Under the pieces are notes generated by a model, which saw only the letters and a list, made by a program, of their open reading frames with translations, did no database searches and was not told the origin of the DNA. 64,000 nt of DNA from Mytilus galloprovincialis (taxonomy: Eukaryota > Mollusca > Bivalvia > Mytilida > Mytilidae): assembly GCF_965363235.1 (NCBI RefSeq), contig NC_134841.1, positions 38,221,440 through 38,285,439 of the forward strand, read 5' to 3'. A program made the translations under genes and the position numbers. How positions within the stretch are numbered: the stretch's first letter is position 1; the number at the start of each line of letters is the position of its first letter. Below are positions 9,797 through 63,187 of the stretch, piece after piece.

Positions 9797-9804
9797 TATA
9801 AAAT
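9797..9804 (+). promoter_or_regulatory. Gene A TATA box
   Basis: TATAAAAT lies about 30 bp before a probable start site near 9827. The non-coding first exon then runs to the donor at 9864 (TCTAAG/GTAATT). Intron 1 (9864-10276) joins it to the signal-peptide exon. Neither the GCGGAAAGCACGT motif nor the TTACGTAA palindrome of genes B-E is seen upstream, so gene A may be controlled differently. Confidence 0.6.
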
Positions 9805-10078
9805 CAGCGGCACGCAAGATGATGATACAGTTCCATATTGACAGCATTGCTAAGAAGTCTAAGGTAATTTCAAAGGTATATATTGTTTAATTGTATGAAT
9901 CTAAATATTTAGAAAAAGGAATTTAATATGAAAAAGGAACTGTCAACGTTTTAAAAAAGATCTTTCATTTTATTAAATATTGTGAAGATATCACGTTTTT
10001 TAGTATATAAAAAAAATTTTTTTTTTGAAGTAGCGCACTTGACTATCATTATAATATTTGTAAAGTTTGTCATATATA

Positions 10079-10178
10079 AAAAAGAAGATGTGGTATGATT
10101 GCCAATGAGACACTATCCACAAAAGACCAAAATGACACAGACATTAACAACTATAGGTCTCCGTACGGCCTTCATATT
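10079..10178 (+). repeat. Dispersed repeat family 2, copy in intron 1 of gene A
   Basis: AAGAAGATGTGGTATGATTG to CTCCGTACGGCCTTCA. It ends about 100 bp before the signal-peptide exon. Confidence 0.55.
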
Positions 10179-10284
10179 AATTTCATTCAATATTGTATAT
10201 CTTTTGTTATAATCTGTAAACTTTTGTATAATGAAAAATCAATATTTAATATAGTTTTTCCTTCATTATTTTTTAGCCATCATT

Positions 10285-13200
10285 ATGATTTTGGTTGTCA
10301 CCCTCATTTTTGCCAGTACAGCTGGAGTTTTGGCAAGCGGAAAAGGAGGTATAATTTGTTTATTTAGTAGTGTCTCGTAGTGCCATGTGTCTTTCATATG
10401 TTTCAACATATTGGGGTTCAATTAAAGATAAAATGTTTTCATTAATGACGCCTTTTTTAATAGAACATGTCCTTTAAATTATATCGAAATTAGATAAGAC
10501 AGTGTGCTTCTTTTTAACAAAAGGCGTTAAAAAAGTGGGTTTTTTTTAGAAATAGACATGTGAAAAAATTTGGAACGCCATTATAAAGTTAATCATTACA
10601 GGAGATGTGAAAATGGCCATTCCACATTACTTAAAAATAAAAAAAAAAATTAAAAATATGGGAGTGAAAAAATGAGTTCCAAAATATTATGGAAAAGTTA
10701 AAAACTGATTTACAGTTGTGAGAATCCTAAGTCCAATAAATTTCCATATCGCGCGTGTTCTGTATGAAAATAATTTAATGGGAATATGCACTTTCAGAAC
10801 AGTTCTCCAAATTAGTTACCATTACATATTTAATGATAAAAATTATGAAACTTAATCAAATTGCATCATTTAATATATTGTAATAACAAGGAATTGCATC
10901 TCTTAGTCAATCCTTCGTAATGATTCTAACATAAATATATATAATTCACCTTATCGAATCTTCATAATTGCTCTTTTATACCATTTTCTATCCAATATTT
11001 TCTATAAATATATCGTTACTCTGTTAAACGTAAATAAAAAAATAAAGCCTGCGATCCATTTATTCTATCCCGATAATTATCATAAAATAAATCTTTTTAT
11101 TCAAAATTTCAAATTTAATTGTAACTTGCTTGAATATTTGTAAAAACGAATCAACACACTTTGAAAAAGCCGTCAAAAAGGATTTAATTTACATCTTTAA
11201 ATTGCACTATCACGAAAATTCACCATTTCTATGAAATATTGTACTATTATAATTCACTTCTTGAAAATGAGATAAATGTTGATTAATTTTGAATAATTAA
11301 ACAGACTTAAGGAATATGACATCATAACACATTTTTTAATAGGTTATTTTTAGTTAATTTCAACTGAGAAATGTCATTAGATGAATTGTTTTTGCAGGAA
11401 TTGGTTCTGGTGTAAATGGTGCCATATCTGGTTTCCCGAGTGGACGTCTTAGTAATGATGGAATTGTAGATCGAAGATTCGGTGTTGGTTTAAATGGACA
11501 AAGGTTAGCTGCAGCATTGGGTGGAACTGTCGCAGGAACTGCAACCGGACTAGCATCTGCTCTTAGTGGAGGATTAGCTTCATCACTTGGCGGAGCAGGA
11601 AGATTTTCTGGAACAGTCGGAGGTAATTTCAGAGGCAGATTTGGACCTGGTGTGAGTGCAACTGGTCCAGGTTTGAGTGGATTTGGTACCGGTGTGAGTG
11701 GATTTGGTCCGGGTTTGAGTGCACCTAGCTCCGATATAAGTGGAACTGGTCCAGCAGTCAGTGGCATATTCACAAGTGGATTTGGTCCGGGTTTGAGTGC
11801 ATCTAGCTCCGATATAAGTGGAACTGGTCCAGCAGTCAGTGGCACATTCGCAAGTGGATTCGGTACCAGTACTAGCGGATTTGTTACCGGACGAGATGAC
11901 ACAACCAGTAGAGCAGGTTTCATTAACATAAGTTACCTGGCATACATCAGATTGATCTCTTATATTTCATCCCTCGAAAGAACCCTTGCTATCAATACAG
12001 GTATCAGAATCGGCTTTGGAGGAAGTCAGCCTGGAAGTGGATTCTCAGGAATAGTATCTGGACCAGGAGTTCAAGGTAGTATAGCCACTTTCGGACCAAG
12101 TGGTTTTGTAAGTAGTCCTAGTGGCGATCTGTCAGTAAACCGCCCTGTAGGCCAAATTGTTGCATCTTTCCAACCACGAGGCTTTGTTAGCAGCCCAAGT
12201 GGTGATCTGTCCGTAAGCCGCCCTGCAGGCCAAATTGTAGCATCTTTCCAACCAAGTGGCTTTATCAGTAGTCCAAGTGGTGATCTGTCAGTAAGCCGCC
12301 CTTCAGGCCAAATTGTTGCATCTTTCCAACCAAGTGGCTTTGTAAGTAGCCAAAGTGGCGATTTGTCAGTAAGTGGTCCTGCAGGTCAAGTTAATATACC
12401 TTTCCAGTCAACTGGGTTTGCTGGTAGACCAAGTGATTCTACTTCAGCAAGTTTGGAGGGAAGTTTTGGAACAGATGGCTCTAGGACATTTGGACCAGTT
12501 TGGAGATTTGGAGTGAATGGTGTCAGAGGTGTTGCAGGTAGGTCAACATTTATTTGTTTAGAAGAAAAAAAATATGGTTAAACTTTAAAACAAAGACATA
12601 TGCAGGTTTTATTTCAACACTATCATGGTACACACACTTTCATATACGTAATAAACTTGTAGTTATCATACATCATTTTTTTTTTGCAAATTTGAATTTT
12701 GTATCATAATAAGATAAAATTATAAAAGAACGTATTGTGGACTAATCTGTTTTCATTGATACCAACCGAATTACAAATGTTTGATGCATTTCGTGTGTTG
12801 TATTCAACCTTTAGTAACATACAGTATTTGTGTGAATACAGTCAGTTGACTAAGAATTAGTTCCCACTAAACATATGTACTCTCATTTCAACTAAAATCA
12901 ATATAAATCAAAACAGTATTGCCAAGTTACTAAATGACCGATGTATTCTAAATAAATACCAGAAGATGTAAGAATGTTAAAAGTTTTATTGTGTATTGGC
13001 CATGCAAGTATTTAGACTTTTAATTTTCTGCTGAAGTACAAAGAAAATGTTTATGGAAAAGTTTGATATGCATTCTCACCAAATAATAGTCGTAAAATAA
13101 GCTGTCGTGTTTAACCCATCACAAAATAAAAAAGACCCTCACGAAAATTCTGACCAAATAAACAATAAAAAATTAAAAATATCTACATCTTATGGTATTC

Positions 13201-14919
13201 ATTTATAAAAATCACCCATAAAGTTACTTGGTAATATTGAGATTTTTTTAGTAAGAATTCACTTTTACTATACCCACTGACTGTATATTTCCCCCGATTA
13301 CAGTACCATTTTAAGTTCGCATTGCAATTTACAGCTTTAGCATCTGCTGACCATATTATAATTAAATAAATACCAGAAGAATGCATATCATGTTGGTGTT
13401 CAACTTCATAACTGCAACATAAATGATTCAAACAATTTTGTTTTTTTGATTAAAACATTGTGTCTACTCCAATTTTTTTTCAAACATGAGAAATGATTTT
13501 TGACCAAAGTAATAGGCTTTTTGTTTTGAACAAATGGAGGTAAATCTTATATAATTCTTAGATCGTAGCGGAGTTAGAATTACAAACGGAAGAGGAGTTC
13601 CAATCACAGACGGAAGTGGAGTCAGTGTCACAGACGGAAGTGGAGTCAGAATCACAGACGGAAATGGATTTAGAACCACAGACGGAAGAGGATTCAGAAT
13701 CACAGGAAGAAGTGGAGTCAGAACCACAGACGGAAGTGGATTAAGAATCACTCACGGAAATGGAGTTGGAATAACAGGGAGCAGTGGATTAAGACTTAAA
13801 TCTGGTGGAAGTATGTATAATTTAGGACATTATTAATGACAAGGAAATAATATGCAAAAAATGTTACAAATAACAAATGCTTTTTTTGGTTTTTTTTGGA
13901 AGGTCAAGATCTATTCTTTGTAAATTCATCAAATTGAGATCTCACAAACATGTTTAACTCCGCCGCATTTTTGCGCCTATCCCAAGTCAGGAGCCTCTGG
14001 CCTTTGTTAGTCTTGTATTATTTTAACTTTATTTTCTTGTGTACAATTTGGAGTTTAGTATGGGGTTCATTATCACTGAACCAGTATATATTTGTTTAGG
14101 GGCCAGCTGAAGGACGCCTCCGGGTGCGAGAATTTCTCGTTGCATTGAAGACCTGTTGGTGACCTTCTACTGTTGTCTGCTCTATGGCCGGGTTGTTGTC
14201 TCTTTGGCACGTTCCCCATTTCCATTCTCAATCTTATTTGTAAATTCATGTATGTATTATTAAGAGATTAGAATATCTCTGTAGCATGAGTCCGAATCCT
14301 GATCAGTGAAGAAGAAGAAAAAAATAACTTTTGCAAATTTACAGATCTAACATTTTTGGCTGACATTTAGACTAATTATTTATGAGTACATACCAAAAAG
14401 TTGGTTCTTGGGTTTTAACATTAATATAAACCTAGCATACCTGATAACCGTAATAGTTGTAAAATTAATTTACCTAAGAATTGACAAAATTCTTCAAGTA
14501 TTCCCTATGTTAAAATGGATAAGTTGTAGCGAGAAGACACCAACAAGGAAATCAGGACACATCCGTCAATGTGAAAAGTCGGAGAAAGCAAACCAGAAGT
14601 CAACAAAACAATACACAGCGCATACAATTGAGCAAAACGAATCACTAAAAGTAATACCAATGATGGATTAAAGGAATCCGACAAATTAGCAAGTTTTGTA
14701 ATATATTTCCATCAAAGAAGACATCGGACAAATTCTACACTTCTAGTTAACTAGTCAATGTTTCACTTTGTATTTTACACTTAAATATTTCCAAAAGAAA
14801 ATTCAAATTGATTAAGTTATAACATTAACTTTTAAAGATTGTTATTTGATACTTTTAAAGCTCATTTAAGACAGCATATGTAACTATGGTTTTCATTTGA
14901 CATTTCAGGTACCTATTAA
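10285..14919 (+). CDS. Gene A: secreted glycine/serine-rich silk-like protein, divergent member of the cluster
   Basis: Coding exons are 10285-10348 (exon from 10277), 11398-12537, 13562-13810 and 14909-14919; the non-coding first exon is about 9827-9863. All introns are GT-AG and the coding ones phase 1, giving 487 residues. The protein starts with a signal peptide (MILVVTLIFASTAGVLA, cleavage likely after residue 17). Gly/Ser/Pro-rich sequence with repeats around SDISGTGPAVSG follows, then the family island at about residues 196-216 (YIRLISYISSLER), then four imperfect ~26-residue repeats built on GFVSSPSGDLSVS and QIVASFQPS. Exon 4 is expanded to 249 nt and encodes about nine 8-residue repeats such as GVRITDGS. 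The last exon gives S-T-Y-stop. It has the exon plan of genes B-E but is more charged and less purely glycine-rich. An extracellular structural role is inferred. Introns 2-4 are each about 1 kb and hold only AT-rich sequence and, in intron 4, a repeat fragment. Confidence 0.85.
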
Positions 14920-15002: not shown

Positions 15003-15008
15003 AATAAA
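15003..15008 (+). terminator. Gene A polyadenylation signal AATAAA
   Basis: AATAAA lies 84 bp after the stop codon at 14917-14919, in the only strong position before the downstream repeats. It implies a short 3'UTR of about 100 bp, as in the other members. Confidence 0.7.
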
Positions 15009-16462: not shown

Positions 16463-16469
16463 ATCCTGA

Positions 16470-22522: not shown

Positions 22523-22781
22523 TTACGTAATAGTTTATTTGACCCTATGTTAAAATTTGCGGGTAAACTTTTTTAATGTTTGATATCAAAGAAAGATTCT
22601 GATTAATATTTTATCAATAAAAATTGTCTTGTAAACATAGTTAAATATACAACATTTTCTTTTAACATCACGTTAAACACGAACAATAAAACAAACAATT
22701 TACATGTTGGAGTCAGTGTTCGGGTGATCGTTTGTGGTCGGCATAAACAGCGGAAAGCACGTACGATCACTCGTATAAATA
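22523..22781 (+). promoter_or_regulatory. Gene B promoter module
   Basis: TATAAATA lies at 22774-22781 and GCGGAAAGCACGT starts at 22750, 24 bp before it. The palindrome TTACGTAA lies at 22523-22530. Between them, 22598-22638 resembles the conserved TCAATAAATTGTC block of genes C-E. The inferred start site is near 22804, and exon 1 ends at 22848 before GTAATA. Confidence 0.75.
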
Positions 22782-23615
22782 CGAATTTTCTCTCGACTAT
22801 TTTCACACTCCGCTGTCACAGTCCCAGTAAAAGCTTAAAGAAACTCAGGTAATACAAATATTTACTAGTATTATATTTTAAACAAAATCATTTTGATGTT
22901 GATTTTTTACAATTGATAGTTTACTTTATATACACTGTAAAATCATAATTTTATTTATTTAACTAAAAGTAATACAATTCTTTTCTAAAGATTGACCAAA
23001 TACATTTTTGGTGATTATATTTTTTTTACGTTAGATGGTTAAAAAAGTTCGCTGTAAAAGTTTGTTTTATTCTACTGAAAATATATAATTATTTGTTAAA
23101 AAGTGTATCTGAAAAACGTTTCCTTAAAAATAAGTTTTAAAATTCGTATTTTCTTTTGATTCATGATGTACTTGAGGATTATGTTATCCAATAGCGTTTG
23201 AAAATACGTTCGAGGATTTTCAAAATGTCTTACATTCTTTATGTAGCCTTTAAAAACTCACCTGCACATCGAGTACAGTATAAATAAACTTAACGAAAAA
23301 AATCGTATATATAGTAAAAATGGTAGATGCAATATTAATTTTAACCAAAGTATAGTGATAATGGATTTAAATGTTTATATGTAGGTCCAACTGTATAGAA
23401 ATTTTCTTAACACAACTATTATCATGTGATCAAGGTAAATTTTTACATTGGCAGTTGAAAAGCATTAATGTTTCTACCTTGACAAATCCAATTAGATTAT
23501 TTCTTGAACCACGGAAAAAGGTGTATTTCATACTGTTGATACAAATGTGTTTTTCTATAATATAAAGTAAAATGCTCATTTGCATGTAAATATAGTTAAT
23601 ATGATAACTATCTTT

Positions 23616-23830: not shown

Positions 23831-24044
23831 TAATTAATAAATTAGGCTAAGCGATAAAAATACTCAGCGTATTATTTTTTTTTATTTGAACGGAACTGAT
23901 TTTGATTTTCAATATTTTGATAATACTGCAAGAGAAATTTCAATAAGTATCCCTAGCAATGCGTAAAATTGCAATTATGTGTACTTTCCTCCATCCTAAC
24001 AGCTTATATCATTGTTTATGTTTTTCTTATTTTTTTCAGGCAAA

Positions 24045-26525
24045 ATGAATACTTTGATTACTTGTGTTGTTCTGCTAGTTGCCAGTTCCTGTACTCATGC
24101 CGGTGGCAAATTCGGCGGTGGTGGTGGTGGAGGTAAGCAAGTTATCTCCCTTACTCCAGATTAAGATGTTTAGAGAATACCAATTACAAATTTATCAATT
24201 AACAAAGTGTAACCTTTAAAAAAAAAAAAATTGATCTAAGTTTAAGTGGCTAGTATAGCGTAGTATACAATAATGTTTTCGGAGCATAGGTCTAATGATA
24301 CTTTTAGATCAGACAAATTATTTTTAACTTGTTTTTCATTTCTCGTGTGAAAACAAGTCCTTTCCGTTTTCGACTTCCCAATTCGAATATCGCTTTTACT
24401 GAATTTGTTAAATTATGAACAAAAGCAAAACACGTGCTTTATAACTTGATTATAGGGACTGCTATTCAATAATAATTAGAGCGACATTTCTTAACAATGA
24501 CTTTCCGAAAAGATGGTTGGCTTTGGTTTCACCATTGAAGTAATAGATTATCATTTTATGATTAAAGATGATTATTTTAAAAGAAACAAAATATCAAAAA
24601 ATATCAAGAATTCTATTATTCTATCGCATTTTTGAAACAAGACTCAGCATGCAACCACTTTTATTTTTCATTATTGCATTTTAATTATTATTAAACCATC
24701 ACAGTACTATAATTTAATTTAATTACTATAATCAAACTTTACAAAAATGGATTTCCATCGGAGTGATCGGTCTCTTGGATCGTAAATAGATTAGAGTCAC
24801 TTCAAAATCTCCAAAAATAATGCTTAACCTTCATTTTTCCTTCAAATCTTTTTACCTAATTGCTGATTGGCTCCAGATGAATTGTTAATACTCAATTCAA
24901 ATTTATTATACACAGCCATCGAATTTTGCATGATCCTTTTCATCTGTCGTAAAATTCAGTCGTAAAATATTTTATGGAAGCTCTTGCAGATTTTTGGTCG
25001 TCATAATTTTTTATTTGTATATTTAATTCATTCAATACATTGAGAATTAAACACTTGTAAATTGACATTTCAGGAGGTGGCTCCCTCAGCGGATCTCTAC
25101 AAGGATCTCTAGCTGGAAGCTTAGGCGGTGGACTCGGAGGTGGTCTCGGAGGTGGTCTCGGAGGAGGATTCGGTGGTGGAATCGGAGGTGGTATCGGCGG
25201 AGGTTTGGGCGGCAGTGGAGTTTCTGGATCTCTAAGCGGTTCTCTAAATGGAAACTTGGGCGGTGGCGTCGGAGGTGGACTTATTGGCGGTGGTGGTGCC
25301 GGTGGATCTATCACCCTCAGCTTCAGTGCCTACCTCAGATTGATGTACTATGTATCAGCTCTTCAACAAGCTGTTGCAGCTAGTAGTTTAAGCGCTGGAT
25401 TCTCCGGTGGCTTGACTGGTGGGTTTGGTGGTGCAATTGGAGGTGGTTTAGGCGGTGCAATTGGAGGTGGTTTAGGTGGTGGTCTAGGCGGAGGTTTCGG
25501 TGGAATCGGTGGTGGTTTCGGATCAGGCTCTGGATTTGCTGGAAGATTCGGTGGTGGATTTGCTGGTTCTGTTAGTGGATCTGGAATCGGAGGTGGTTTC
25601 GGTTCAGGCTCCGGATTTGCTGGTAGATTTGGCGGTGGATTTGCTGGACGTGTTGGAGGTCTAGGAGGTCTAGGCGGAGCAGGAGGTATTGGTGGACTTT
25701 CAGGAGGACTCTCTGGTGGATTAAGTGGCGGCCTTTCTGGTGGTCTAGGCGGTGGTCTTGGAGGAGGTGCTGGATCTAGCATCATGGGTAAATATAAAAA
25801 AAACTGATGCTCCATGATAGAAAAAAGGCAATATATTGTCACAACCATTATGTAAACAATTTTAATGCATTAAGTTATATATATAGAACAAGTGGAAAAT
25901 TCCTAATATAATTGCAATACTCAAGTGATTTTGAAGGATTTCTTTTCTCTCGAGAAAACGTAAACATTTCCTTGTCAATAAAGAAAACCAATTTCAGCAA
26001 TATAACGACTAAAGAGAGAGTACAAAAAACTACACTTCTATTTCAGGAACTCTTGGTGGAAGTTTGAATGCTGGAATCAGCGGCGGAGCTGGTGGCATCG
26101 GAGGTGGAAAAGGTGGTAAGTAATTTTGTAAATGATTCAAGATTGTTTTGAAGTAACTTGTACATATATTACATTAAGGGAAAATAAAGAAGTCTAAAAG
26201 TATTCATGGAAAAATAAATAAGCTTTGTACCTATATATGTATTGCTTCTTAAGATATTTGAATACCATTTATTTAAGACACGGAACAGACGAGCCGATGT
26301 TGCATTTGTTAATTATATTTCATATAAAAGAATATACCGATAAATGACTTAATTATTAAAGCATTTGTCTTAAAATGTTTTCAAAATAGCTATTTGTTTT
26401 ATTTACGCTTTAAATGAAATCAGAATTGTGTGCAGTATTAGGAAATGATGCTCATGTTTGTGTATAATTTAGCTTTTTAACAACAATTTTTTTTCTCTTT
26501 TTCTATTACAGCAAGTTATTATTAA
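24045..26525 (+). CDS. Gene B: secreted glycine-rich silk-like protein
   Basis: Coding exons are 24045-24132 (exon from 24040), 25074-25787, 26047-26115 and 26512-26525, with a 5'UTR exon at about 22804-22848. The joined frame is open for 294 residues and all coding introns are phase 1. A signal peptide (MNTLITCVVLLVASSCTHA) is followed by GGKFGG and long GGGLGGG/GGGIGGG runs. The family island SAYLRLMYYVSALQQ lies within residues 108-128. After it comes a duplicated FAGRFGGGFAG block and then GGLSGG runs. The only cysteines are in the signal peptide. The last exon gives A-S-Y-Y-stop. It has the same plan as C-E but lacks their six SGNLGG repeats, so it is an older paralogue. It is probably an extracellular fibre or matrix protein; the tissue is unknown. 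Introns 1 (1191 bp) and 2 (941 bp) are AT-rich; intron 1 holds a repeat at 23616-23830. Confidence 0.88.
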
Positions 26526-26617: not shown

Positions 26618-26623
26618 AATAAA
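26618..26623 (+). terminator. Gene B polyadenylation signal AATAAA
   Basis: AATAAA lies 93 bp after the stop codon. The 3'UTR keeps a faint match (GACGCC...TTGATGAAC) to the 3'UTRs of C-E, which supports common descent. Confidence 0.75.
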
Positions 26624-37145: not shown

Positions 37146-37434
37146 TTACGTAACATCAAAACCTTTTGTTAGATTTTTAAAGAAAATGTGTAAAATGACA
37201 AATAATACCGTCTGATTAATATTTGTCAATAAATTGTCATGTAAGCAGAGATAAATTTATGTTGTGGTTTGAAACCATGTAAAACACGAATTTTACAACC
37301 TAGCGTTAAGAAAAGGGAACTATAAGTGTACTAAATTACAAATTTTATTGAGAAAAATCAATGTATGTATACTACGGTCAAATTTAATGCTAGTGCAGTA
37401 AAGCGGAAAGCACGTACACTCGGTGATATAAAAG
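37146..37434 (+). promoter_or_regulatory. Gene C promoter module
   Basis: TATAAAAG lies at 37427-37434, with GCGGAAAGCACGT at 37403-37415 (24 bp start to start). TTACGTAA lies at 37146-37153. The block containing TCAATAAATTGTCATGTAAG lies at about 37211-37248. The start site should be near 37457, and exon 1 ends at 37507 (GAGCAG/GTATTA). Confidence 0.78.
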
Positions 37435-37871
37435 AGGACAATTTCTTATCTTTTCCACATATCATTTGTACAACATTTTCCAAAGGCACCAAGAGAAAGA
37501 AGAGCAGGTATTACAATTTTAAACTAAATAGTTATAAAATTTAGAAAATTTCTTTACATTTATAAAAAAATCGTTTTATAGTTCCAATTGATATGAACGT
37601 ACGGTTTCATATAGTTGTAACCTAACTTTATCTCATTTGTTCACTGGTGTATACTTGCCTAATTGACAATCATACTGAATTTTCTTTTTTCTAAAATAAT
37701 CATACTTTGCAAGAAGCTTCTTAATTCTAATGCATCTTGAATTCTAGTTAATACCAACAATCATTCAAACCTTTTTAAATGCATTTTGAAGTACTAGTAC
37801 ATTTGATTAAAACAATTATTTATACTTTTTGTCAGATATCCCTTAAAAGATTTGAATCTATTTCAGGAAGG

Positions 37872-40800
37872 ATGAATACTTTTGTAACCGTACTCCTAGT
37901 GTCCGTTGCCTTTGCAAATGCTGTACCCAGATATGGCGGCGGCAAAGGAGGTAAGTTGTTTTAATTTAAATAATATGATTTCGCTCTATTTCACCAAACA
38001 AAGGACAAATTCAAAAGGCATTACACTCAATACATTTTTTTGGCAATTATTCTATTTATTCTAATTTGTTTAAATATTATATATTAAGTATTTTGGTGAT
38101 TTATAATTAGTTCCTGGAAAAGTTCTTTAAAAAAAATTATATTGATTTGTGATGATCTGAAATTTTATTATTTTCGGATAAGTTTGCATGAAAGTGGAAC
38201 ATAAGTCTCTGATACTACATATAAATAACGATCTTTCTTATAAAGTGAAAAATAATTTTAGATTATAATAATCATCTTATCTGTAAAATATAATCACAAA
38301 AAGGATAATCATAATAATATGGCACCAATTTTATTTACAATATCGATAACAAAAGGCAATAAGAAGGAAAGTTTATAGAAAAATGACTAGAAAATCAGAA
38401 AAATTCCCTAAACAACAACATTTGTTTTTCTATCATTTAATATAGCTGCTAAATTATTTCAGTAGGTGGATCTATCAGTGGATCAATTGATGGATCTATT
38501 GGCGGAAATGTTGGAGGTGGCTTCGGAAGTGGACTTTCTAGTTCTCTCAGTGGTGCTCTTAGCGGAAACTTGGGTGGTGGCATTGGAAGCGGAATTGGCG
38601 GCATAGATGTATCTAACTCTCTCAATGCTGCTCTTAGTGGAAATTTGGGAGGTGGAATTAGTGGCAGTGGACTATCTAGTTCACTCAACGCTGCTTTAAG
38701 TGGAAACTTGGCCGGAGGCATTGGAGGTGGTCTTGGAGGCGGTGGAATATCTAGTTCTCTTGCTGGTGCTCTAAGCGGAAATTTGGGAGGTAGTCTAGGA
38801 GGTGGTCTCGGCGGCAGTGGACTATCTAGTTCTCTCAACGCTGCATTAAGCGGAAATTTGGGAGGTAGTCTAGGAAGCGGTATTGGCGGCAGTGGGATTT
38901 CAGGTTCTCTAGCTGGTGCTCTTAGCGGAAATTTGGGAGGTGGAATTAGTGGTGTTGGTGCCGGCAGATCTATCTCCATCAGCATTAGTGCATACCTTAG
39001 ATTGATTTCCTACATCTCTGCTCTTCAACAAACCATCTCTGCCAATACCTTAGCAGCAAGTTTGAGCGGTGGAATCAGTGGTGGAATCAGTGGAGGAATT
39101 GGTGGTGGAGTAGGAGGTGGATTCACTGGTGGTGCTGGATCTAACTTTGCTGGACAATTTGACGGTGGATTTGCTGGTTCTGTTGGCAGATCTGGATTCG
39201 GAACTGGAGTAGGAAGCAGCGGATTTGCTGGACAATTCGGAAGTGGATTTACTGCACAAAGTGGAAATATCGGAGGTATTGGAGGAGCCGGCGGTTTAAG
39301 TGGAGGACTTTCCGGAGGATTAAGTGGTGGAATTTCTGGTGGTATAAGAGGTGGTATTGGAGGTGGTGCAGGAGGAATCAGCAGCGCTAGCCTTCAAGGT
39401 CAGTATTCTATGTAAAAAAGTTAAACAAATTTAAACAGGAATTCTTAAATATGAAATTTTGCGATACTTTTTTTTTTTATTTTTATTTTTTTTATCCAAC
39501 ATATATAATATACAACAGTACAGTTATCAAACAGTTAGTTCATGTATATGAATGTAATATAATACAATCTATCAGAAAATGTATAGAACTTGAAAATAAC
39601 ATTTTGTTGGGATTTTATAATTGTATCTTATTAAAAAGGGACATACAAAAAAAAGTATGGAGAATTGATAAATAAAAAAATAAAAAGATGATTAAGAAAA
39701 AGAAAAAAGAAAAAAAAAACATAAACATAAAATTTTGTATAGTTGCTAATCCACCAAATTATCCTGTAAAGCCTCTTGGTAAATGCACCAAGCTTGGTTA
39801 AACTTGTCAAACATTTATTTTTAATTGATATCGTCTTCTCCAAAATATAATGATGCTTTATTTTTTCAATCAATGCTGTTAAACTTAATTCTCCTTTAAA
39901 ATATCGTGTATTATATATATCTTGTTTAATCCAGAGAAAAATATTGTTTTGAGGGTCATTTTTGTACATTCGTGATAAATTTCCAAACAAAAAAATATCC
40001 TGTGTAAATGGTATACTAATACCATTCTGGAGAAACCACATTTCGGTTTGCTCAATAAATTGTTGTACATAATAACAGTCCCACAGTATATGTTCAATTG
40101 ATTCAAGTTCAGTCTTACAAAAAGTACAATATGGGTTTTGCACTATCCCAATTTTGTTTAAAAACGTATTTGTTGCCAGAATTTTATGATTAATTCTATA
40201 CTGAAGCCATTGTTTTGCGATCCTTAATATGTATGAAGGAACGATATTAGAAAAGATAAACAAAACATTTTGTTAAGTGCTGTTAATAACATTAATCATT
40301 TAATAAATATCGACTGAAGATAGAGTACGATTTCCCTCGTTCTTTTTTTTCCTTTTTTACAGGGATAGGGGTTGGGGTGCAGTTCAACCATGTGAATGCC
40401 TTGAATCGGACGCCATTGATAATTCTTATGTAAACGAACGTTAGCACTGGCGTAACTAATAATGAACCTGGAATGTGTAACCAATGATCTGCTGTTTGCC
40501 ACAGCTTTCCCATTGAGTAAAGTTACGCGTTGTTGTGTTTCTATTATTCTTTTTAACTTCATCTATAATCTTTATGTCGTTTTCAGCTGCTCTTCAAGGA
40601 AGTGTAAGCAGTGGATTAGGAGGCAGATCTGTTGGAAAAGGTAAACTTTTAAAAAAGTTTAAAATATAACAAGATATATAGATATAAGGATTTAAATTTT
40701 AATCAGATATAGTAACATGCACAGTGTACTCGATAGTTAGGTCCAATTTACCATTATATATTTTTTTGTAGTCATTAAGAAAAACACGAAAATTATTTAA

Positions 40801-41841
40801 ACCTACAATTCAAATATCAAACAGTCTTTGTAATTTACTCCAAACTTATTCAGAAATTTTACATATTTTCAAAGATAATGGAATGATGTGAAATGTTGAT
40901 ATAAAAACAATGGACCTGAAAGACAACTCATCAAGAAAGTTTACAAAGTGCTTTGCATATTATTGTATAAACATTCACATATAAAAACAACAAAAATAAA
41001 AAATATATAATTATTTGAAATTGTACACATAAATAAAGGCAACAGTAGTATACCGCTGTTCAAAACTCATAAATCCATGGACAAAAAACAAAATCGGAGT
41101 AACAAACTAAAACCGAGGGAAACGCATTAAATATAAGAGGAGAACAACGACACAACACTAAAATGTAACACACACAGAAACGGACCAAGCATCAGACAAA
41201 ATCCCACGAGAATAACAAATATAACATCAAAACCAAATACATGAATTTGGGATAGACAAGTACCGTGACACGTCTTATCGCAATGTGAAATTACACTCAA
41301 AAATAAGAGAAAACAAACGACTCAACGTTAAAATGTAACACACACAGAAACGAACAATAATATAACAATGGCCATATTCCTGACTTGGTACAGGACATTT
41401 TTAAAGGAAAAAATGGTGGGTTGAACCTGGTTTTGTGGCATGCCAAACTTCGCACTTTAATGGCAATGTTAAATATAACATTGAAATGACAACATAATAT
41501 TACAGGACTACAATACAAATAAATAGGAGAACGTATTAGACAAAGAAACAAATGATTAATGAATAACAAAAAGCATCAGGTTTAAAATTCAATACGTCAA
41601 AAACGCGCCTCGTCCACACAAGACTCACCAGTGACACCCAGATTAATAATAGACATAATAAACTAATACGTAAACGTATGATTGGAAAATAACTTATCAG
41701 GGATAAAACAAAAGTGATAAGTAAAGTTTTATCAAGTGTAATCGATGTTTATTTTTGTTAAAAGTGTATGCAAAATATAATGTTTTTTTCAAGTAGATAT
41801 ACTAATATATACCATTTCTTTTTGTAGGATCAGCATACTAA
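37872..41841 (+). CDS. Gene C: secreted glycine/serine-rich silk-like protein
   Basis: Coding exons are 37872-37950 (exon from 37867), 38463-39398, 40587-40640 and 41828-41841, with a 5'UTR exon at about 37457-37507. Together they encode 360 residues, all introns phase 1. The signal peptide is MNTFVTVLLVSVAFANA, and the mature chain begins VPRYGGGKG. Six repeats of 21-25 residues with the signature SSLNAALSGNLGG lead to the island at residues 196-216 (SAYLRLISYISALQQ). FAGQFDGGFAGSV-type segments, GGLSGG runs, exon 4 (AALQGSVSSGLGGRSVGKG) and the end GSAY follow. The mature protein has no Cys, and its few Tyr lie near the start, in the island and at the very end. Intron 3 carries a LINE (39468-40212) and intron 4 a dispersed repeat; both are absent from gene D, so they came after the duplication. 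A structural extracellular role is inferred. Confidence 0.9.
39468..40212 (-). mobile_element. 5'-truncated LINE in intron 3 of gene C (L1/Tx1-like C-terminus)
   Basis: The minus strand encodes the reverse-transcriptase C-terminal zinc-binding region: QWLQYRINHKILATN, then a C-x2-C pair in NPYCTFCKTE, then SIEHILWDC. An A-rich tail (T-rich on the plus strand) lies at 39468-39495. The flanks TTTTGCGATAC (39457-39467) and TTTTGCGATCC (40213-40223) form a near-perfect target-site duplication. Genes D and E have only short sequence at this place, so it is a young insertion in gene C. It lies antisense to the gene. Confidence 0.8.
41033..41560 (+). repeat. Dispersed repeat family 1b copy in intron 4 of gene C
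   Basis: AATAAAGGCAACAGTAGTAT to GGACTACAATACAAATAAAT. Genes D and E lack it in this intron. A degraded hammerhead motif follows at 41598. Confidence 0.65.
41598..41640 (-). ncRNA. Degraded hammerhead-like motif, minus strand, in intron 4 of gene C
   Basis: The minus strand reads CACTGGTGAGTCTTGTGTGG followed by an altered GAAA box. It sits at the same end of the same repeat family as the motif at 29112. Confidence 0.35.
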
Positions 41842-41924: not shown

Positions 41925-41930
41925 AATAAA
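41925..41930 (+). terminator. Gene C polyadenylation signal AATAAA
   Basis: AATAAA lies 84 bp after the stop. The stretch 41814-41945, covering the last exon and 3'UTR, is identical by eye to 51046-51177 in gene D. Confidence 0.8.
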
Positions 41931-47554: not shown

Positions 47555-47838
47555 TTACGTAATATTTTATCTTATTGTTCAACGAAAATGTGCGAAATGG
47601 CAAATAAAACTGTCTGATTCATATTTATCAATAAATTGTCATGTAAGCAGAAGTAAATTTAAATTGTGGTTTTTGAAATAATGTTTCACATTAGTTTTGA
47701 AACTAAGTATTATGAATATAGAATGACTAGTGTGCTAAACATCAAACAATACTAGAAAAAATAAATTTCTATACATCAGGGTCAACACTAATGTGCAGGC
47801 AAGAATGCGGAAAGCACGTTGACACAGATGTATAAAAG
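47555..47838 (+). promoter_or_regulatory. Gene D promoter module
   Basis: TATAAAAG lies at 47831-47838 and GCGGAAAGCACGT at 47807-47819. TTACGTAA lies at 47555-47562, and the TCAATAAATTGTCATGTAAG block within 47611-47650. The start site should be near 47861; exon 1 ends at 47896 (ACCAG/GTATAA). Confidence 0.78.
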
Positions 47839-48109
47839 AGAATGATTGCTGATCATTTATACGTACCATTGATATCATCGAGAGAAAGAACACCAGGTAT
47901 AACAATTTCAAATTAATAATTATACTCTCGAGTAAATATCTTTAACAATGCTTCATATTTATAAATATTTAGTGACATATACTGGTTATATATCTCAACA
48001 TTGTTATTCATATTTTTTTTCAATGAATCTTGAATTGGATTTGAAAACAACAACTATTTTATACTTTTTGTCAGATTTTCCTTATTATTTTTAATCTATT
48101 ACAGTCAGG

Positions 48110-51073
48110 ATGAATACTTTTATAACCGTACTCCTAGTGTCCGTTGCCTTTGCAAATGCTGTACCCAGATTTGGCGGCGGTAAAGGAGGTAAGTTGTTTT
48201 CATTTACATTATATGATTATCGCTATATTTTACAAAATATAGGACAAATTCACCAGGGATTACACTCATTACTTTTTTGGGCAATGATTCTATTTATTCT
48301 AATTTGTTTAAATATTATTTTAAGTAATTTGGTGATCTGTAATTAGTTGCATGAATGATTCTTAAAAAAAAAATTAATATTGATTTTCGACAATCTGATA
48401 TTCATTCTGAGACTTGATTCATTTTCATGACGAATCTTACATGACTTAGATTAACGATTGTGGATGGTCTGTTGAACGTCCAAGGGCTTTTATTAATATA
48501 TCATGCACACATAGTACAAGCAAGAAACAGAATTAAGTACATGAAGGGATAAATTCCAAAAATAAACCAACCTGGTCTTTAACCTTCAAACTGGGCAATT
48601 ACGGATTCCTCAGTTTGTTGTGGCAAGGGATTTATAACGTGTAAAGAGCGTTGAACTCCCAAAGAGTAAATGCACGTTACTGCGTAACGTAACGTGACAC
48701 TACAAAAGCGCCGTTTTCCAAATTTATACGATTTTACATACTCTTGGTTGAACTTTCAAAAATAGTCTACCCCCAAATGTCAGAATAAAAAATTCTCAAC
48801 ACTTTTTATTATATCTGTCTGTAAATACTTAGGTATGGTAATTGTTTCGCTTGGATTTTGTTTTAAACAAATCTGTATAAACGAATTCAGATTTTATTTA
48901 GGGATAAATTTGTATACGTCCCTGATATTACGTCTAAAAACCGATTTGTCTTATGAAGTGAGAAATAATTTTAGATTATAATAATCGTCTTGTCCGTAAA
49001 GTATAATAACAAATTATAGAAATATGGCACCAATTTTATTTACAATACCGATAACAAAAGACAACGAAAGTTTATAGAAAAATGACTGTAAATTTACTAG
49101 AAAATCATAAAAATTCTGCAAACAACAAAATATGTTTTTCTATCATTTAATATAGTTGTATGAATTATTTCAGTAGGTGGATCAATCAGTGGGTCAATTG
49201 ATGGATCTATTGGCGGAAATGTTGGAGGTGGCTTTGGAAGTGGACTTTCTAGTTCTCTCAGTGGTGCTCTTAGCGGAAACTTGGGTGGTGGCATTGGAAG
49301 CGGAATTGGCGGCGTAGATGTATCTAACTCTCTCAATGCTGCTCTTAGTGGAAATTTTGGGGGTAGTCTAGGAGGTGGGTTCGGCGGAAGTGGACTATCT
49401 AGTTCACTCAACGCTGCTTTAAGTGGAAACTTGGCCGGAGGCATTGGAGGTGGTCTTGGAGGCAGTGGAATATCCAATTCTCTTGCTGGTGCTCTAAGTG
49501 GAAATTTGGGAGGTAGTCTAGGAGGTGGTCTCGGCGGTAGTGGACTATCTAGTTCTCTCAACGCTGCATTAAGCGGAAATTTGGGAGGAAGTCTAGGAAG
49601 CGGTATTGGTGGCAGTGGCATTTCAGGTTCTCTGGCTGGTGCTCTAAGCGGAAATTTGGGAGGTGGAATTAGTGGTGTTGGTGCCGGCAGATCTATCTCA
49701 ATCAGCATAAGTGCATACCTTAGATTGATTTCCTACATCTCTGCTCTTCAACAAACCATCTCTGCCAATACCTTAGCAGCCAGTTTGAGCGGTGGAATCA
49801 GTGGTGGAATCAGTGGAGGAATTGGTGGTGGAGTAGGAGGTGGATTCACTGGTGGTGCTGGATCTAACTTTGCTGGACAATTTGACGGTGGATTTGCTGG
49901 TTCTGTTGGAAGATCTGGATTCGGAACTGGAGTAGGAAGCAGCGGATTTGCTGGACAATTCGGAAGTGGATTCGTTGCACAAAGCCAAAATATCGGAGGT
50001 ATTGGAGGAGCCAGTGGTTTAAGTGGAGGACTTTCCGGAGGATTGAGTGGTGGAATTTCTGGTGGACTAGGAGGTGGTATTGGAGGTGGTGCAGGAGGAA
50101 TCAGCAGTGGAAGCCTTCAAGGTCAGTATTCTATGTAAAAGAATTAAACAAATTCAAACAGGAATTGTTAGATATGAAATTTTGAGATGCGGTACTTAAT
50201 ATGAAGATAAGGTATTAGAAGGGAAATATACAAAACATTTCATTAAGTATTGTAAATAACATTAATAATTTCATAAAAATCGACTTAAAATCGAATACGA
50301 TTTCCCTTGTTGTTTTCCCTTTTTAGTAGGATGGGGATCGGGGGTACAGTTCAACCATGTGATTGCCTTGAATCGGAAGCCATTGTTTTTTATATAAGCA
50401 CTAGTGTAACTTATTACGAACCTGAAATGTGTAAATAATGGTCTGCTGTTTGACAAAGTTTTCCCATTGAGTAAAACTACGAGTTGTTGTGTATATATTA
50501 TTCTTTTTAACTTCATCTATAATCTTTATGTTGTTTTCAGCTGCTCTTCAAGGAAGTGTAAGCAGTGGACTCGGTGGCAGATCTGTTGGAAAAGGTAAGC
50601 TTTTTAACAAGTTTAAGATATAACAAGATAGATATAATGATTTTAATCATACAATAGTAACATGTACAGATTACTTGATAGTTAGGGCCAATTTACCTAA
50701 TAAATTTTTTAGTCACTAAGAAAAAACATTTTTTTGTACATAACACAAACCGTCAGTTTTCTAGTATTACTAAATTCAATATGTAATTGCTCACAATTGG
50801 GGGTCCTTTGTCGCTTATTTCCATGTGCTTTGGTGTCTGACGATGGCGAATTGATTCATTTCCAATCCTATATCTTCTAATTCATAATATGCTCAAATAG
50901 GAAAAGTGATCAATTACAGTGTACATGTAATTGGTCTCCCCCATTCAGCGTCAATTTCCATTTGAATGTGTAATCTATGTTTATTTTTGTAAAATGTGTA
51001 TGCAAAATGTAATACATTTTTCAATTAGATATACTAATATATACAATTTCTTTTTGTAGGATCAGCATACTAA
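48110..51073 (+). CDS. Gene D: secreted glycine/serine-rich silk-like protein
   Basis: Coding exons are 48110-48188 (exon from 48105), 49174-50121, 50541-50594 and 51060-51073, with a 5'UTR exon at about 47861-47896. The 364-residue protein is nearly the same as gene C: signal peptide MNTFITVLLVSVAFANA, then VPRFGGGKG, six SGNLGG repeats, the island at residues 200-220, and the end GSAY. It is four residues longer than C because the second repeat carries the fuller GGSLGGGFGGS spacer. Intron 2 (985 bp) has about 490 bp (48405-48900) not found in gene C. Introns 3 and 4 are short (419 and 465 bp) and lack the insertions seen in C. Retention of intron 3 would add only QYSM before a stop, as in C. 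A matrix or fibre role is inferred. Confidence 0.9.
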
Positions 51074-51156: not shown

Positions 51157-51162
51157 AATAAA
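51157..51162 (+). terminator. Gene D polyadenylation signal AATAAA
   Basis: AATAAA lies 84 bp after the stop, in a 3'UTR identical to that of gene C up to about 51177. Confidence 0.8.
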
Positions 51163-51859: not shown

Positions 51860-53050
51860 CAAACGATCACTATTTATTACGAAAAGGAAAATGAATAGAA
51901 AAAAATAACCCTAAGCTCTATCAAGATATTTCCTGAGCCCCCTGAATAGAACTAAAGCCTTATAGACATGCACTTGAGAGCTGTTTTATCTGGTGCTAAC
52001 AAAATACATCATATTTCACAATTATCTTGCACACAATGCTCAAACTGTGTATTTACTTCTATGCAGAAGTTGAAAACGATATGTTGCTGAGTCAGATCAA
52101 TCATTCACAAACCTGAGATCAGCCATCGTAATGAACATTAATGTACGAAAGACCTTCATCACAATCGAAATTCAAGAATCACCACAGTTAGGCAGATTTA
52201 AATCGATTACCATCATTGACCACAACACTACTTGGTCTTCAGAGGAAAGAACCAAATAGGAAAAGATTTCAAATAAGATTTCAAGCCATGACACCAATTG
52301 CTATCTATAACATAGTTATCAAAGGTACAAGGATTATAATTTAATACCCCAGTTATGTTGTATTGTGTATGTATGTAAGTGTGTGATACATTAGTGGGCG
52401 ACTTTTGAAGTCTGAGTATGATGTTTCTACTTGAAAGTCAGACATTGTTTGTTTCTACAACCCTTGCAAGAGACTGATAAGGATAAACCAACCGTCATCA
52501 GCAACTCTTTAATGGTTGACTTTTTTCTACTAAAACCCAGTTCGGGTAGCTCTTGGTAGATCTGTGTTTCTTAAGGCGGTTTTCTTCTTTCTTACCAATT
52601 TTCGCGAATAAAGTTAGACAAATTTATCCAATAAAGGAAGGTAAAACACAGGTTGATGCTACTTGCAGTGAAGGATTTGCTTACCATTCCAAAATCCAAG
52701 AGATAACTAGAGTTAATTAGTAGGATTTATGTTGTTAAGTCTTAGTTTATATACGTTGTGTTTTGTATGCTATTGTTTATCTAATGCTCGTCTTTAGCTC
52801 ATCTGGCTAACTTTTGAAAATGTTCTCCTTTAGGGTAAAATTAACCCAACTTGACCTCAATCATTATTGGGGTATCTAGTTTGAAAATGTGCGTGATGAC
52901 CCTCGCGTAGCAACCAAACATGGCCATGAAGGCTAAAAAGAGGTGTTAAATGCAAGTTTTGTCTTTCATTTTTAAATTAAGTAAATCTGACAGGGGCAAA
53001 AATGTTCAAAATGTTGTACTCTACCTATTGTATATATTTTTCATAATTGT
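51860..53050. other. Intergenic DNA downstream of gene D
   Basis: 51855-52000 resembles the regions downstream of genes C (42515-42720) and E (63805-64000). The rest has no recognised feature except a repeat tail at 52311. Confidence 0.45.
52311..52362 (-). mobile_element. Tail fragment of the hammerhead-bearing family
   Basis: The minus strand carries ATTAAATTATAATCCTTGTACCTTTGATAACTATG, the family's 3' part (quoted here only as its key blocks ATTATAATCC and TTTGATAACT), without a ribozyme core. Confidence 0.45.
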
Positions 53051-53370
53051 CAGACGACTTTTGATAGGAGTTAATACCTTATACGACAAATTTTACCGTT
53101 TTTGTTCTTAAAAATCATATAACAGATACAAAGAGACATTAAATTGCAAAAGTTATCAACAAGACAAATTTTACAAATAAGTTAGCATTGTCAAAATCGT
53201 CAGCCGACTTTTGATAGGAGTTAATACCTTATATGACAAATTTTACCGTTTTTGTTCTTAAAAATCATATAACAGATACAAAGAGACATTAAATTGCAAA
53301 AGTTATCAACAAGACAAATTTTACAAATAAGTTAGCATTATCAAAATCGTCAGCCGACTCCTTATTAGAA
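53051..53370. repeat. 150-bp tandem duplication
   Basis: Units 53051-53200 and 53201-53350 are almost identical, and a third begins at 53351 but diverges quickly. Each starts at CAG(A/C)CGACTTTTGATAGG. Confidence 0.85.
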
Positions 53371-54094
53371 TTATTGCCCTTTGATGATGATTTTTACCAT
53401 TTTATCCTGTAGCTCAATCCATATCGTAAACTTGGATACATATGATAGTTCTTTTCGAAGCTGTGATATTTTCATATATATGGTTAAATTTGCAGGGTAC
53501 GAAATATGATTACTGTTTCTGTAAATTAGCATACCCCGAACATCCTTTCGTGATGCAGCTCCTCACGGCAAAAATCCCTTTTATTAATTCTTCTATGTTC
53601 CTCTACTTTTCAAATCACCACAAATGGTAAAGCTCAGTCATTTGTAAAAAAATTCCAATATCATTACACAGAGATTTTTTTATTACACACAACTTTTGTG
53701 TTCCTCATTTCGAGGCGCATTAGGAATATTGACCCATATAAGCTAAAATGACCAACAAGACAAGACCTACAATTAAGACAAATATTTTTGATGTTTAAAT
53801 AAAAAGATTTTTACTCTATATTAAATCTCTTGCCTCTGTGTGATTCGACAATGAATACAAATTAGAAAATCTATCAATATAGAACGATATGGTTTCCTGT
53901 TCAATTATTTCTTAAATGTCCAAAGACTCTCGGGGACTGAGATATGCGTTACTGCATGGCAAAAATTCTAAAGTCGACAACTTTAATCTTTGTAACAATT
54001 TAAATATAGACAAGAGAAACCAAAATGACACAAAATATACAACAAAAACTACTAAACAAACTCATCATAGATACCAGGACTTAATTTTGTATAT

Positions 54095-56200: not shown

Positions 56201-56201
56201 A

Positions 56202-59700: not shown

Positions 59701-60092
59701 GTTGACCTTATATGTTTTTTACTATCTTTAAGTACTTTATGGTTATTTAGCTCTACAAGTATTTGGATTCTTATTTATAATCGGTTTCACATATTCGGCT
59801 TTGAGTGTCCCTTTTGAAGGTTGTTCCGTTTACATGGACCTTTTTACTAGAAGCTTTCTTTGTTACTTGGCAGTCTACTATATAGAACAAACGTATATGC
59901 ATCATGCATGTGACTTTTTTTCAAAGAAACCACAAACAAAGAAAAAAAAAATTCAAATTCAAAATGGCGTCTTACTAAAGTAAAAGCCCGGTATACTGTG
60001 GAATATACCACTTTGACAGAAATATATAACGACGACCATTAATAATATAACAATTTCAAATTACATTGCATTACAATGAAGAAATGACCATA

Positions 60093-60372
60093 TTACGTAA
60101 TATTTTATCTTATTTTTGCGGAAAATGTGCGAAATGGCGGATAAAGCTGTCTGATTCATATTTATCAATAAATTGTCATGTAAGCAGAAGTGAATTTAAA
60201 TTGTGGTTTTTGAAATAACGTAAAACATTAGTTTTAAAATAACTGTTTTGAATAGAGAATGACTAGTGTGGTGAACATAATATTTTACTAAGAAAATCTA
60301 ATTCTATACATTAGGGTCAGCATTAATGTTCAGAAAGAATGCGGAAAGCACGTTCACACAGCTGTATAAAAG
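60093..60372 (+). promoter_or_regulatory. Gene E promoter module
   Basis: TATAAAAG lies at 60365-60372, GCGGAAAGCACGT at 60341-60353 and TTACGTAA at 60093-60100. The TCAATAAATTGTCATGTAAG block lies within 60149-60186. The start site should be near 60395; exon 1 ends at 60430 (ACCAG/GTATCA). Confidence 0.78.
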
Positions 60373-60590
60373 AGAAACATAGCTGATTGTTTATCCATAC
60401 CATTGATACCATCGAACGACAGAAAACCAGGTATCACAATTTTAAGTTATAAGCTCGAGTAAATATCTTCAAAAAATATATATATATTCAATAAGATATA
60501 ATGACACTTGTGATATATCTCAAATTTGTTTCATTTATCCCCATTTTTAAATGCACTTTTTAATAACAACATTAATCCATTACAGGCAGG

Positions 60591-63098
60591 ATGAATACTT
60601 TGATAACCGTACTCATAGTGTCCGTTGCCTTTGCAAATGCTGTACCCAGATATGTCGGCGGTAAAGGAAGTAAGTTGTTTTAATTTACATAATATAATTG
60701 TCGGTCTATTTAACTAAAAAAAAAGGACAAATTCAGAAGGGATTACCCCAAATATATAACTAAATTTGGCTTGTTATCATTTAATATAATAGTATGAATT
60801 ATTTCAGTAGGTGGATCTATCAGTGGATCAATAGATGGATCTATTGGCGGAAATGTTGGAGGTGGCTTCAGAAGTGGACTTTCTAATTCTCTCAGTGGTG
60901 CTCTAAGTGGAAACTTGGGTGGTGGCATTGGGAGCGGAATTGGCGGCGTAGATGTATCTAATTCTCTCAACGCTGCTCTAAGTGGAAATTTGGGAGGTAC
61001 TCTAGGAGGTGGGTTTGGTGGAAGTGGAGTATCTAGTTCACTTAATGCTGCTTTAAATGGAAACTTGGCCGGAGGCATCGGAGGTGGTCTTGGAGGCAGT
61101 GGAATTTCTAATTCTCTTTCTGGTGCTCTAAGTGGAAATTTAGGAGGTAGTCTTGGAGGCGGTTTCGGCGGCAGTGGACTATCTAGTTCTCTCAACGCTG
61201 CTTTGAGTGGAAATTTGGGAGGTAGTTTAGGAAGCGGTATTGGTAGCAGTGGCATTTCTGGTTCTCTGGCTGGTTCACTAAGCGGAAATTTGGGAGGTGG
61301 AATTAGTGGTGTTGGTGCCGGCAGATCTATCTCCATCAGCATTAGTGCCTACCTTAGATTGATTTCCTACATCTCTGCTCTTCAACAAGCTGTTAGTGCC
61401 AATACCTTAGCAGCAAGTTTGAGCGGTGGAATCAGTGGTGGAATCAGTGGAGGAATTGGTGGTGGAGTAGGTGGTGGATTCACTAGTGGTGCTGGATCTA
61501 ACTTTGCTGGACAATTTGACGGTGGATTTGCTGGTTCTGTTGGAAGATCTGGATTCGGAACTGGAGTAGGAAGCAGCGGATTTGCAGGACAATTTGGAAG
61601 TGGATTCAGTGCACAAAGTGGAAGTATCGGAGGTATTGGAGGAACAGGTAGTGTAAGTGGAGGACTTTCCGGAGGATTAAGTGGTGGACTAGGAGGTGGT
61701 ATTGGAGGTGGTGCAAGAGGAATCAGCAGTGCAAGCCTTCAAGGTCAGTATTATATATCATCACCAAATAAGAAAGTTAAAACAACATATTTAAACAGGA
61801 TCTCTATTAGATAAAAGTGTGCTATGCGATATATGAACGAACGGTATTAGAAGGGATATTATTCCATTTTAATGTGCTATAATATTGTTAATCATTTCAT
61901 CAACACTGACTTGAATGAGATTTTCCTCGTTTTTTTTTTTCTTTTGAGTTGAGGGTAGAGTTAAACTACTTTTAAACCTTATGATTGGCTAGGCCATCAA
62001 GTTTTTAATTGAAACGCAAACAATACGTCTTATGTAGAAGAACGATACCACTGGGGTAACTTATTATGAACCTTAAATGTGGATCCAATGATCTGCTGTA
62101 TGACTCAGTTTCCCTATATAACGTTACTACGCGATGTTGTGTTTTAATATTATTATTTTTTACATCATCTATAATCTTTATGTCGTTTTCAGCTGCTCTT
62201 CAAGGAAGTGTAAGCAGTGGATTCGGTGGCAGATCTGTTGGAAAAGGTGAGCTTTTAAAAGAAGTTTGAAATATAGTTAAAATATAATATGACATATATA
62301 ATGATTTGAATTAGACTAAATAGTGACATTAACAGTAGAAGTTTTACAGTGTAATTGGTAGTTAGGGCCAATTTACCTTAAATTTGTTTTCAGTGACTGG
62401 AAAAAACTCAAAAGTCATTAAAATATACAAATCGAATATCAGAAGGTCGGTGTAATTTTCTCGAAACTTTTTCAGAAATTTTACATATTTACATGTAACC
62501 TTACAACCAGAATGTAATAAATTATCAATAGAACATTTATTAATGTAATTTGTTTTATACATATAAATAACCGTCAGTTTATCATTTTAGATAGTTTAAC
62601 ATTTTTTTCCTTTCGGGATCTTTTATAGATTTGATATGCGGTATAGGTTCATAACTGAAGGCTGTACAATGACAAGTAGTTGCTAACTGTCATCATAATT
62701 GCACATTTAGTTGGTGTCGCCCCCGCGAGATCAAACTTCATTAGATGTTAATGAAATATTGTGAAGTTTAATATAAGGACCTAACACATTTGTAATAGAC
62801 ATCTTATCAATACATACAAAAGCTCACATAGTGTTTTGCATATTTTGTATTAAAACTCACATAGAAGAACTTCCAAAATTAAAATGAATAAGAAAAATAT
62901 TTTAAATGGCACACATAATGAAGATAATACATTGATAAGTAAAAGTTTGATTTGAAATGAACTTGCAATATCAGGGATACAAAAAAATATATGTAAAAGT
63001 TTTATTGTTGTTTAATTAATGTGTATGCAAAATCTACAGTGCTCGTCCATCAATATATGCTAATAAACAAAATTTGTTTTGTAGGATCCGCATACTAA
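60591..63098 (+). CDS. Gene E: secreted glycine/serine-rich silk-like protein
   Basis: Coding exons are 60591-60669 (exon from 60586), 60808-61743, 62193-62246 and 63085-63098, with a 5'UTR exon at about 60395-60430. They encode 360 residues. The signal peptide is MNTLITVLIVSVAFANA, followed by VPRYVGGKG, six SGNLGG-type repeats, the island at about residues 200-220 (SAYLRLISYISALQQ), FAGQF segments, exon 4 (AALQGSVSSGFGGRSVGKG) and GSAY. Intron 2 is only 138 bp, against 512 in C and 985 in D. After the island it reads AVSA, as in gene B (AVAA), where C and D read TISA. The part after the island has lost one GGISGG unit. The cluster may continue beyond the window. Confidence 0.9.
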
Positions 63099-63181
63099 AT
63101 AACATATGTATATTTGTTTGACGCCTGAAGTCGATCAACGAAATACTCCATTTCTCTTTAATTGTATTAACTCAGTATTTG

Positions 63182-63187
63182 AATAAA
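63182..63187 (+). terminator. Gene E polyadenylation signal AATAAA
   Basis: AATAAA lies 84 bp after the stop. The 3'UTR matches those of C and D with about ten differences. Confidence 0.8.

Follow-up and report, generated by a model that had tools for sequence, protein, structure and literature searches.

A same-strand tandem array of eleven or more Mytilus genes encoding secreted, silk-like proteins, probably of the mantle and shell

The window, a stretch of 64,000 nucleotides (C4:38221440-38285439), holds part of what appears to be a lineage-specific tandem family of at least eleven Mytilus genes, all on one strand. From their sequences we consider it likely that these genes encode secreted, jointly regulated, silk-like structural proteins, probably of the mantle and shell. 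The site is argued by analogy, from the kind of protein alone: mantle and shell are favoured because proteins of this kind are known there. The proteins of mollusc shells and threads change quickly in evolution and are often untraceable between lineages, and the locus would display fast structural-protein evolution at several ages in one place.

Five genes (A-E) were modelled in the window, their GT/AG splice sites being picked by eye with the sequence and the paralogues as a guide, and each model gives an uninterrupted protein (487, 294, 360, 364 and 360 aa for A to E). All five follow one plan, consisting of a TATA box, a 5'UTR exon, a signal-peptide exon, a long Gly-rich exon, a short exon and a tiny last exon (11 nt in A, 14 nt in B-E). 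TATAAA lies upstream of each gene, the 5'UTR exon ends 65-80 nt past it and AATAAA is found 83-92 nt beyond the stop (Table 1). The four coding exons measure 72/1140/249/11 nt in A, 93/714/69/14 nt in B, 84/936/54/14 nt in both C and E and 84/948/54/14 nt in D, the length of the first including the 5-8 nt between splice site and ATG, and the three introns are of phase 1,1,1 in every gene. This DNA-level evidence confirms A-E as real genes in their exon plan. An earlier note on this DNA had placed five same-strand loci with a common exon plan, including a last exon of 11-14 nt, at 9797-63187. Both points held: all five loci are on the + strand, from the TATA box of A at 9797 to the end of the E AATAAA at 63187, and the five open models agree in intron phase.

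Table 1. Positions in the window of the features of genes A-E
Feature	Position	Strand	Remarks
A TATA box and 5'UTR exon	TATA 9797; exon end 9863	+	
A signal-peptide exon	10277..10348	+	
A long exon	11398..12537	+	conserved block 11919-12002
A short exon	13562..13810	+	249 nt, 24-bp repeats
A last coding exon	14909..14919	+	11 nt; AATAAA at 15003
B core promoter and 5'UTR exon	22750..22848	+	GCGGAAAGCACGT 22750; TATA 22774; exon end 22848
B signal-peptide exon	24040..24132	+	
B long exon	25074..25787	+	conserved block 25289-25411
B short exon	26047..26115	+	
B last coding exon	26512..26525	+	14 nt; AATAAA at 26618
C core promoter and 5'UTR exon	37403..37507	+	element 37403; TATA 37427; exon end 37507
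C signal-peptide exon	37867..37950	+	
C long exon	38463..39398	+	25-aa repeats; conserved block 38951-39073
C short exon	40587..40640	+	
C last coding exon	41828..41841	+	14 nt; AATAAA at 41925
D core promoter and 5'UTR exon	47807..47896	+	element 47807; TATA 47831; exon end 47896
D signal-peptide exon	48105..48188	+	
D long exon	49174..50121	+	conserved block 49674-49796
D short exon	50541..50594	+	
D last coding exon	51060..51073	+	14 nt; AATAAA at 51157
E core promoter and 5'UTR exon	60341..60430	+	element 60341; TATA 60365; exon end 60430
E signal-peptide exon	60586..60669	+	
E long exon	60808..61743	+	conserved block 61308-61430
E short exon	62193..62246	+	
E last coding exon	63085..63098	+	14 nt; AATAAA at 63182-63187

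Several other features of the window were observed alongside the gene models. The short exon of A encodes an 8-aa, SGVRITDG-like repeat with Arg and Asp, unlike the corresponding exon of the other genes (54-69 nt). The last intron of A contains an interspersed repeat (14000-14240) with at least 40 matches, itself included, among the best 40 of 3592 candidates; the other matches listed are 96-98% identical and lie on many contigs, and the repeat resembles a SINE. A 21-bp unit is present in 12.6 copies at 4076-4343, with a repetitive frame on the - strand, and a 150-bp tandem repeat (2.1-2.4 copies, 90-97%) lies between D and E at 53041-53403. Rfam returned nothing on the window at the gathering threshold.

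The array extends beyond the five genes. A search of the 1.38-Gb genome with a 41-aa block taken from the central part of protein C gave 11 scored matches at E<=10, all on the + strand of C4 at 38.233-38.412 Mb, within 180 kb. Ten of these had E<=0.04 (A at 0.04); the eleventh, K, has its own signal, long and short exons despite a weak block match (E 0.195). The description of a five-gene array was therefore too narrow, as at least eleven genes, A-K, span about 180 kb (C4:38231716-38413167) and the window ends inside the array. F-K were modelled on the identical plan, with a signal exon of 83-93 nt, a long exon of 393-1095 nt, a short exon of 54 nt, a last exon of 14-17 nt and all introns of phase 1. 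The K model is incomplete, its last exon being beyond the DNA examined, and in all ten complete models AATAAA is located 76-97 nt beyond the stop (H has another at 32). Exons 2, 4 and 5 of C-E have counterparts in F, G and H, while exon 2 of B and exon 4 of C-D have counterparts in I and J. The long exon of A matched nothing in the genome except itself at E<=1, and that of K matched nothing outside the cluster at E<=10. Other frames interrupt the array, with a Mab-21-match frame between H and I (L045:3922-4653, - strand) and an IgGFc_binding frame (L049:8423-9679, E 8.3e-55) and a TSP_1 frame (L053:2593-2961, E 4.2e-8) between J and K, indicating that its far end is not purely tandem.

Further support for the gene models is provided by the way the copies differ. 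When the long exons of C-H were aligned in pairs at the DNA level (15 pairs), identity was 84-96% and all 46 gaps were multiples of three. In the next intron, aligned among D-H (10 pairs; C left out for its insert), identity was 48-70% and 13 of 78 gaps were multiples of three. Differences in the long exon numbered 590, 335 and 1031 at codon positions 1, 2 and 3, summed over pairs that are not independent. Whole-gene dN/dS (Nei-Gojobori) was 0.18-0.41 in 15/15 pairs of C-H; values were uneven by part, reaching 0.72 after the block (D/E) and 0.65 inside it (E/H). A 36-aa core has zero amino-acid changes among C, D, F and H, and differs in E and G. As judged from these sequence comparisons, the C-H proteins are under purifying selection. 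The same comparisons bear on whether the locus consists of expanded GGN-type simple repeats with chance frames, or of Pro-rich genes on the other strand. Long Pro-rich frames do run along the - strand across the same exons, but splice sites, signal peptides, TATA boxes and AATAAA signals are all on the + strand, the 46 gaps come in threes and whole-gene dN/dS is far below 1; we give this explanation practically no credence. The Pro-rich antisense frames were rejected as genes, since they are the complement of GGN codons, and the simple-repeat or chance-frame reading is already refuted at the DNA level.

The intron after the long exon is 1188 nt in C versus 337-449 nt in D-H, and a frame matching zf-RVT (E 2.4e-6) lies in it on the - strand at 39631-40272. 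Together, the frame and the greater length of the intron suggest the remnant of a retroelement that inserted once C and D had split.

The copies are of different ages. Long-exon identity to D was 96% for C, 93% for E, 66% for B and 35% for A, which agrees with the order of divergence proposed in the earlier note (C/D/E, then B, then A). A DNA tree of B-I, with four of five inner branches starred, joined C with D, then E, then F, leaving G and H outside without a settled order; a tree of flanking DNA agreed in outline, with no starred branch. In the full-length protein tree, where K was only 47% filled, B joined I, J and K (98/98) and J paired with K (100/99), the order within C-H was unsettled and A had a very long branch (2.77) and an unsure place. 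A tree of 42 core columns supported J with K (100/99) and left B and I without resolution. These trees suggest that C-H are younger than the split of the flanking copies, so that six younger copies would stand among five older ones. Younger copies between older ones fit expansion within the array and not an A-to-E series. The directional birth series that had been proposed is thus not borne out, C-H being mid-array and B grouping with I, J and K, which lie beyond them.

Most copies also share an uncommon promoter element. In B-H, GCGGAAAGCACGT or a form with one or two mismatches starts exactly 24 nt before TATAAA, and a scan of about 204 kb on both strands with the 17-base form, allowing up to four mismatches, gave seven matches, all of which are those of B-H. 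J has AAGCACGTACGC at the corresponding distance, spotted by eye and below the reach of the four-mismatch scan. When the genes are compared without gaps, GCACGT proves invariant at -17 to -12 of the TATA box in 8/8 (B-H, J); we take ACGTGC to resemble a bHLH-PAS half-site. A search of the whole genome with the bipartite pattern, at most two mismatches being allowed, gave 32 rows, and the reversed control 10. The six rows with no or one mismatch all fell within the cluster, at B, C, D, E, F and H, and the 26 rows with two mismatches comprised G and 25 elsewhere, of which 13 are copies of a single repeat-like sequence. Because the pattern was derived from these genes, only its absence elsewhere is news. 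The relaxed pattern AAGCACGTAC-9-TATAAA had four exact matches, namely B, C and J in the cluster and C2:9320641, and its reversed control had none. When B was compared with C-H in a fixed TATA register from -150 to +60, the best 18-bp windows (15-17/18, compared with a mean of about 7) fell at the element; that so diverged a gene as B has kept it speaks for a function. The promoter likeness among C-H is partly due to shared ancestry, so B and J carry most weight. A has a TATA box and lacks the shared element, no promoter was identified for I, and the K promoter is not among the sequences compared. Together with its unlike short exon, the absence of the common element suggests that the use of A may have changed. 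Overall, this uncommon element of most copies suggests that the genes are switched on together, and the element may be sufficiently specific for co-expression to be predicted from it and for its regulator to be traced.

The predicted proteins are 22-47% Gly and 11-21% Ser, net basic, and carry few charges except in A. A repetitive Gly/Ser/Leu-based chain has a conserved block inside it; in C-H the chain contains a 25-aa repeat of five or six units, regularly spaced with small departures. The block is kept in all eleven proteins, around I..S....Y(L/I)RL(I/M).Y(I/V)S.L, and beyond it a few Gly, Phe and Ser columns are also kept in all eleven; it could be used for finding relatives. The earlier note mentions neither this block nor the promoter element. 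The ten complete models end in a tail of the form GK-G-(S/A)-(A/S)-Y with variations (GKGSAY in C-G, GKGASYY in B, GKGAAYY in H, GKIAAY in I, GKGAAY in J and SGGSTY in A). AlphaFold, run on the D long exon with 11 sequences, gave a weak model (mean pLDDT 38.6, pTM 0.17), in which only residues 176-202 are outside segments with pLDDT below 50 and a helix predicted at 178-207 corresponds to the block. The SilkSlider criterion asks for a signal peptide and an 80-aa window with >=25% Gly (PMC4944945). The best 80-aa stretch has 32.5-60% Gly in 11/11 proteins, and in all eleven the N-terminus is hydrophobic (mean over the best 11 residues 2.1-2.9) and has cleavage sites with small residues, signal peptides being judged by a simple rule and not by SignalP. 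Consistent with what had been claimed from the window, the array thus encodes secreted, Gly-rich, silk-like proteins of common descent, with all eleven above the SilkSlider glycine threshold.

Such proteins could also come from the foot glands and serve as matrix or coating of the byssal thread, and not in shell. The genome is that of a byssus-making mussel, byssal threads have amorphous Gly-rich domains (PMC4944945) and an mfp-1-type gene is on the same chromosome. We nevertheless regard a byssal role as unlikely, as each protein has only 3-7 Tyr, leaving little room for DOPA, and neither a collagen-like repeat nor a byssal decapeptide was noticed when the translations were read by eye; nor did Pfam return a collagen match for any of the seven sequences scanned. 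The mfp-1-type decapeptide gene itself (C4:52623400-52625448) lies about 14 Mb away and has a 770-aa frame, the decapeptide units of which we take to be identical to the Mytilus mfp-1 unit. Very improbable, in our judgement, is that these are secreted defence or mucus proteins of the Gly-rich antimicrobial type, silk-like by accident. A hyperdiverse family of cysteine-free antimicrobial genes, expressed in gill, is described in Mytilus (PMC12294457), the array chains are net basic and the IgGFc_binding and TSP_1 frames are found between J and K. However, the chains are long (179-487 aa, K incomplete) and sparsely charged for their size, and C-H show constraint, not diversification.

If the array does encode structural proteins of mantle and shell, its genes would be activated jointly in a single secretory epithelium, the mantle being the likeliest. 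The Gly-rich arms would remain disordered and make up a gel or film, the block may be a helix that mediates association of the chains, and in the tail Lys and Tyr are candidate sites of cross-linking; copy number would set the dose and variety of the material. Only tentatively would we go further and propose a new silk design with a dedicated locus, in which a shared internal assembly helix is combined with a core promoter of the array's own (at best, GCGGAAAGCACGT beginning exactly 24 nt ahead of TATAAA) and with arms free in length and composition, so that one tissue could secrete a tunable mix of up to eleven chains.

The earlier note knew of no named family with these features, and the sequences scanned bear this out. 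Pfam gave no match for proteins A, B and E (E<=1) or for the long exons of G, I, J and K (E<=0.01), a scan that covered these seven of the eleven genes, and the prokaryote-centred NCBIfam gave none for the long exons of all 11 (E<=0.1). A PDB search with the 45-aa core of C only found no relative. Six peptide strings from the core block were absent from the full texts searched, supplements excluded, and no title or abstract in the literature searched, with few subscription journals included, describes this array. One match outside the array, C3:85908960-85910084 (best E 7.6e-8, 28-35% identity, in-frame stops), was rejected as a low-complexity NGSIRGSIEGSLNG-type array that is alike in composition only.

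The closest comparison is with the shematrins. In pearl oysters, five tandem shematrin genes are described on two scaffolds of Pinctada (PMC4759782). Six shematrin-like transcripts specific to the mantle are described in Dreissena (PMC9210306), and such transcripts are abundant in Perna mantle (PMC6641155). Like the array proteins, the Pinctada shematrins are described as secreted, basic, Gly-rich, repetitive and encoded in tandem (PMC4759782, PMC9210306), and by analogy they and the shematrin-like sequences of Perna and Dreissena may serve as a precedent in kind for the mussel array, with no kinship implied. True orthology of the array with the Pinctada family seems improbable to us. It would account for the common features, and Shematrin-7 is listed as GLS-rich, most listed shematrins being of GY type (PMC4660305); transcripts from the mantle of Perna (PMC6641155) and Dreissena (PMC9210306) bear the shematrin-like name. 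The RKKKY, RRKKY or RRRKY C-terminus described for shematrins (PMC11358866) is nevertheless absent from the ten complete models, nine of which have GKGSAY-like ends in its place, with SGGSTY in A. Moreover, the Dreissena proteins are described as not alignable to those of Pinctada (PMC9210306), so the name marks composition and not descent. The array also differs from shematrins in having one conserved internal block and repeats based on G, S and L.

A wider likeness is to the SilkSlider class, in which, as in 11/11 array proteins, a signal peptide is joined to an 80-aa stretch with more than 25% Gly. Mollusc shells are reported to contain silk-like proteins, and the class is defined by composition, with most members seemingly independent in origin (PMC4944945). 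Since composition defines it, membership implies no kinship. The kind of protein is thus already known, as lineage-specific silk-like proteins that in places are tandem, and the family within that kind appears new, set apart from shematrins by their described C-terminus. Spider and moth silk proteins likewise join a low-complexity chain of repeats to a short helical part that is non-repetitive, and their assembly domains are at the ends. The array resembles these silks in its chain and predicted helical part, but the block that all its members share is internal, not terminal.
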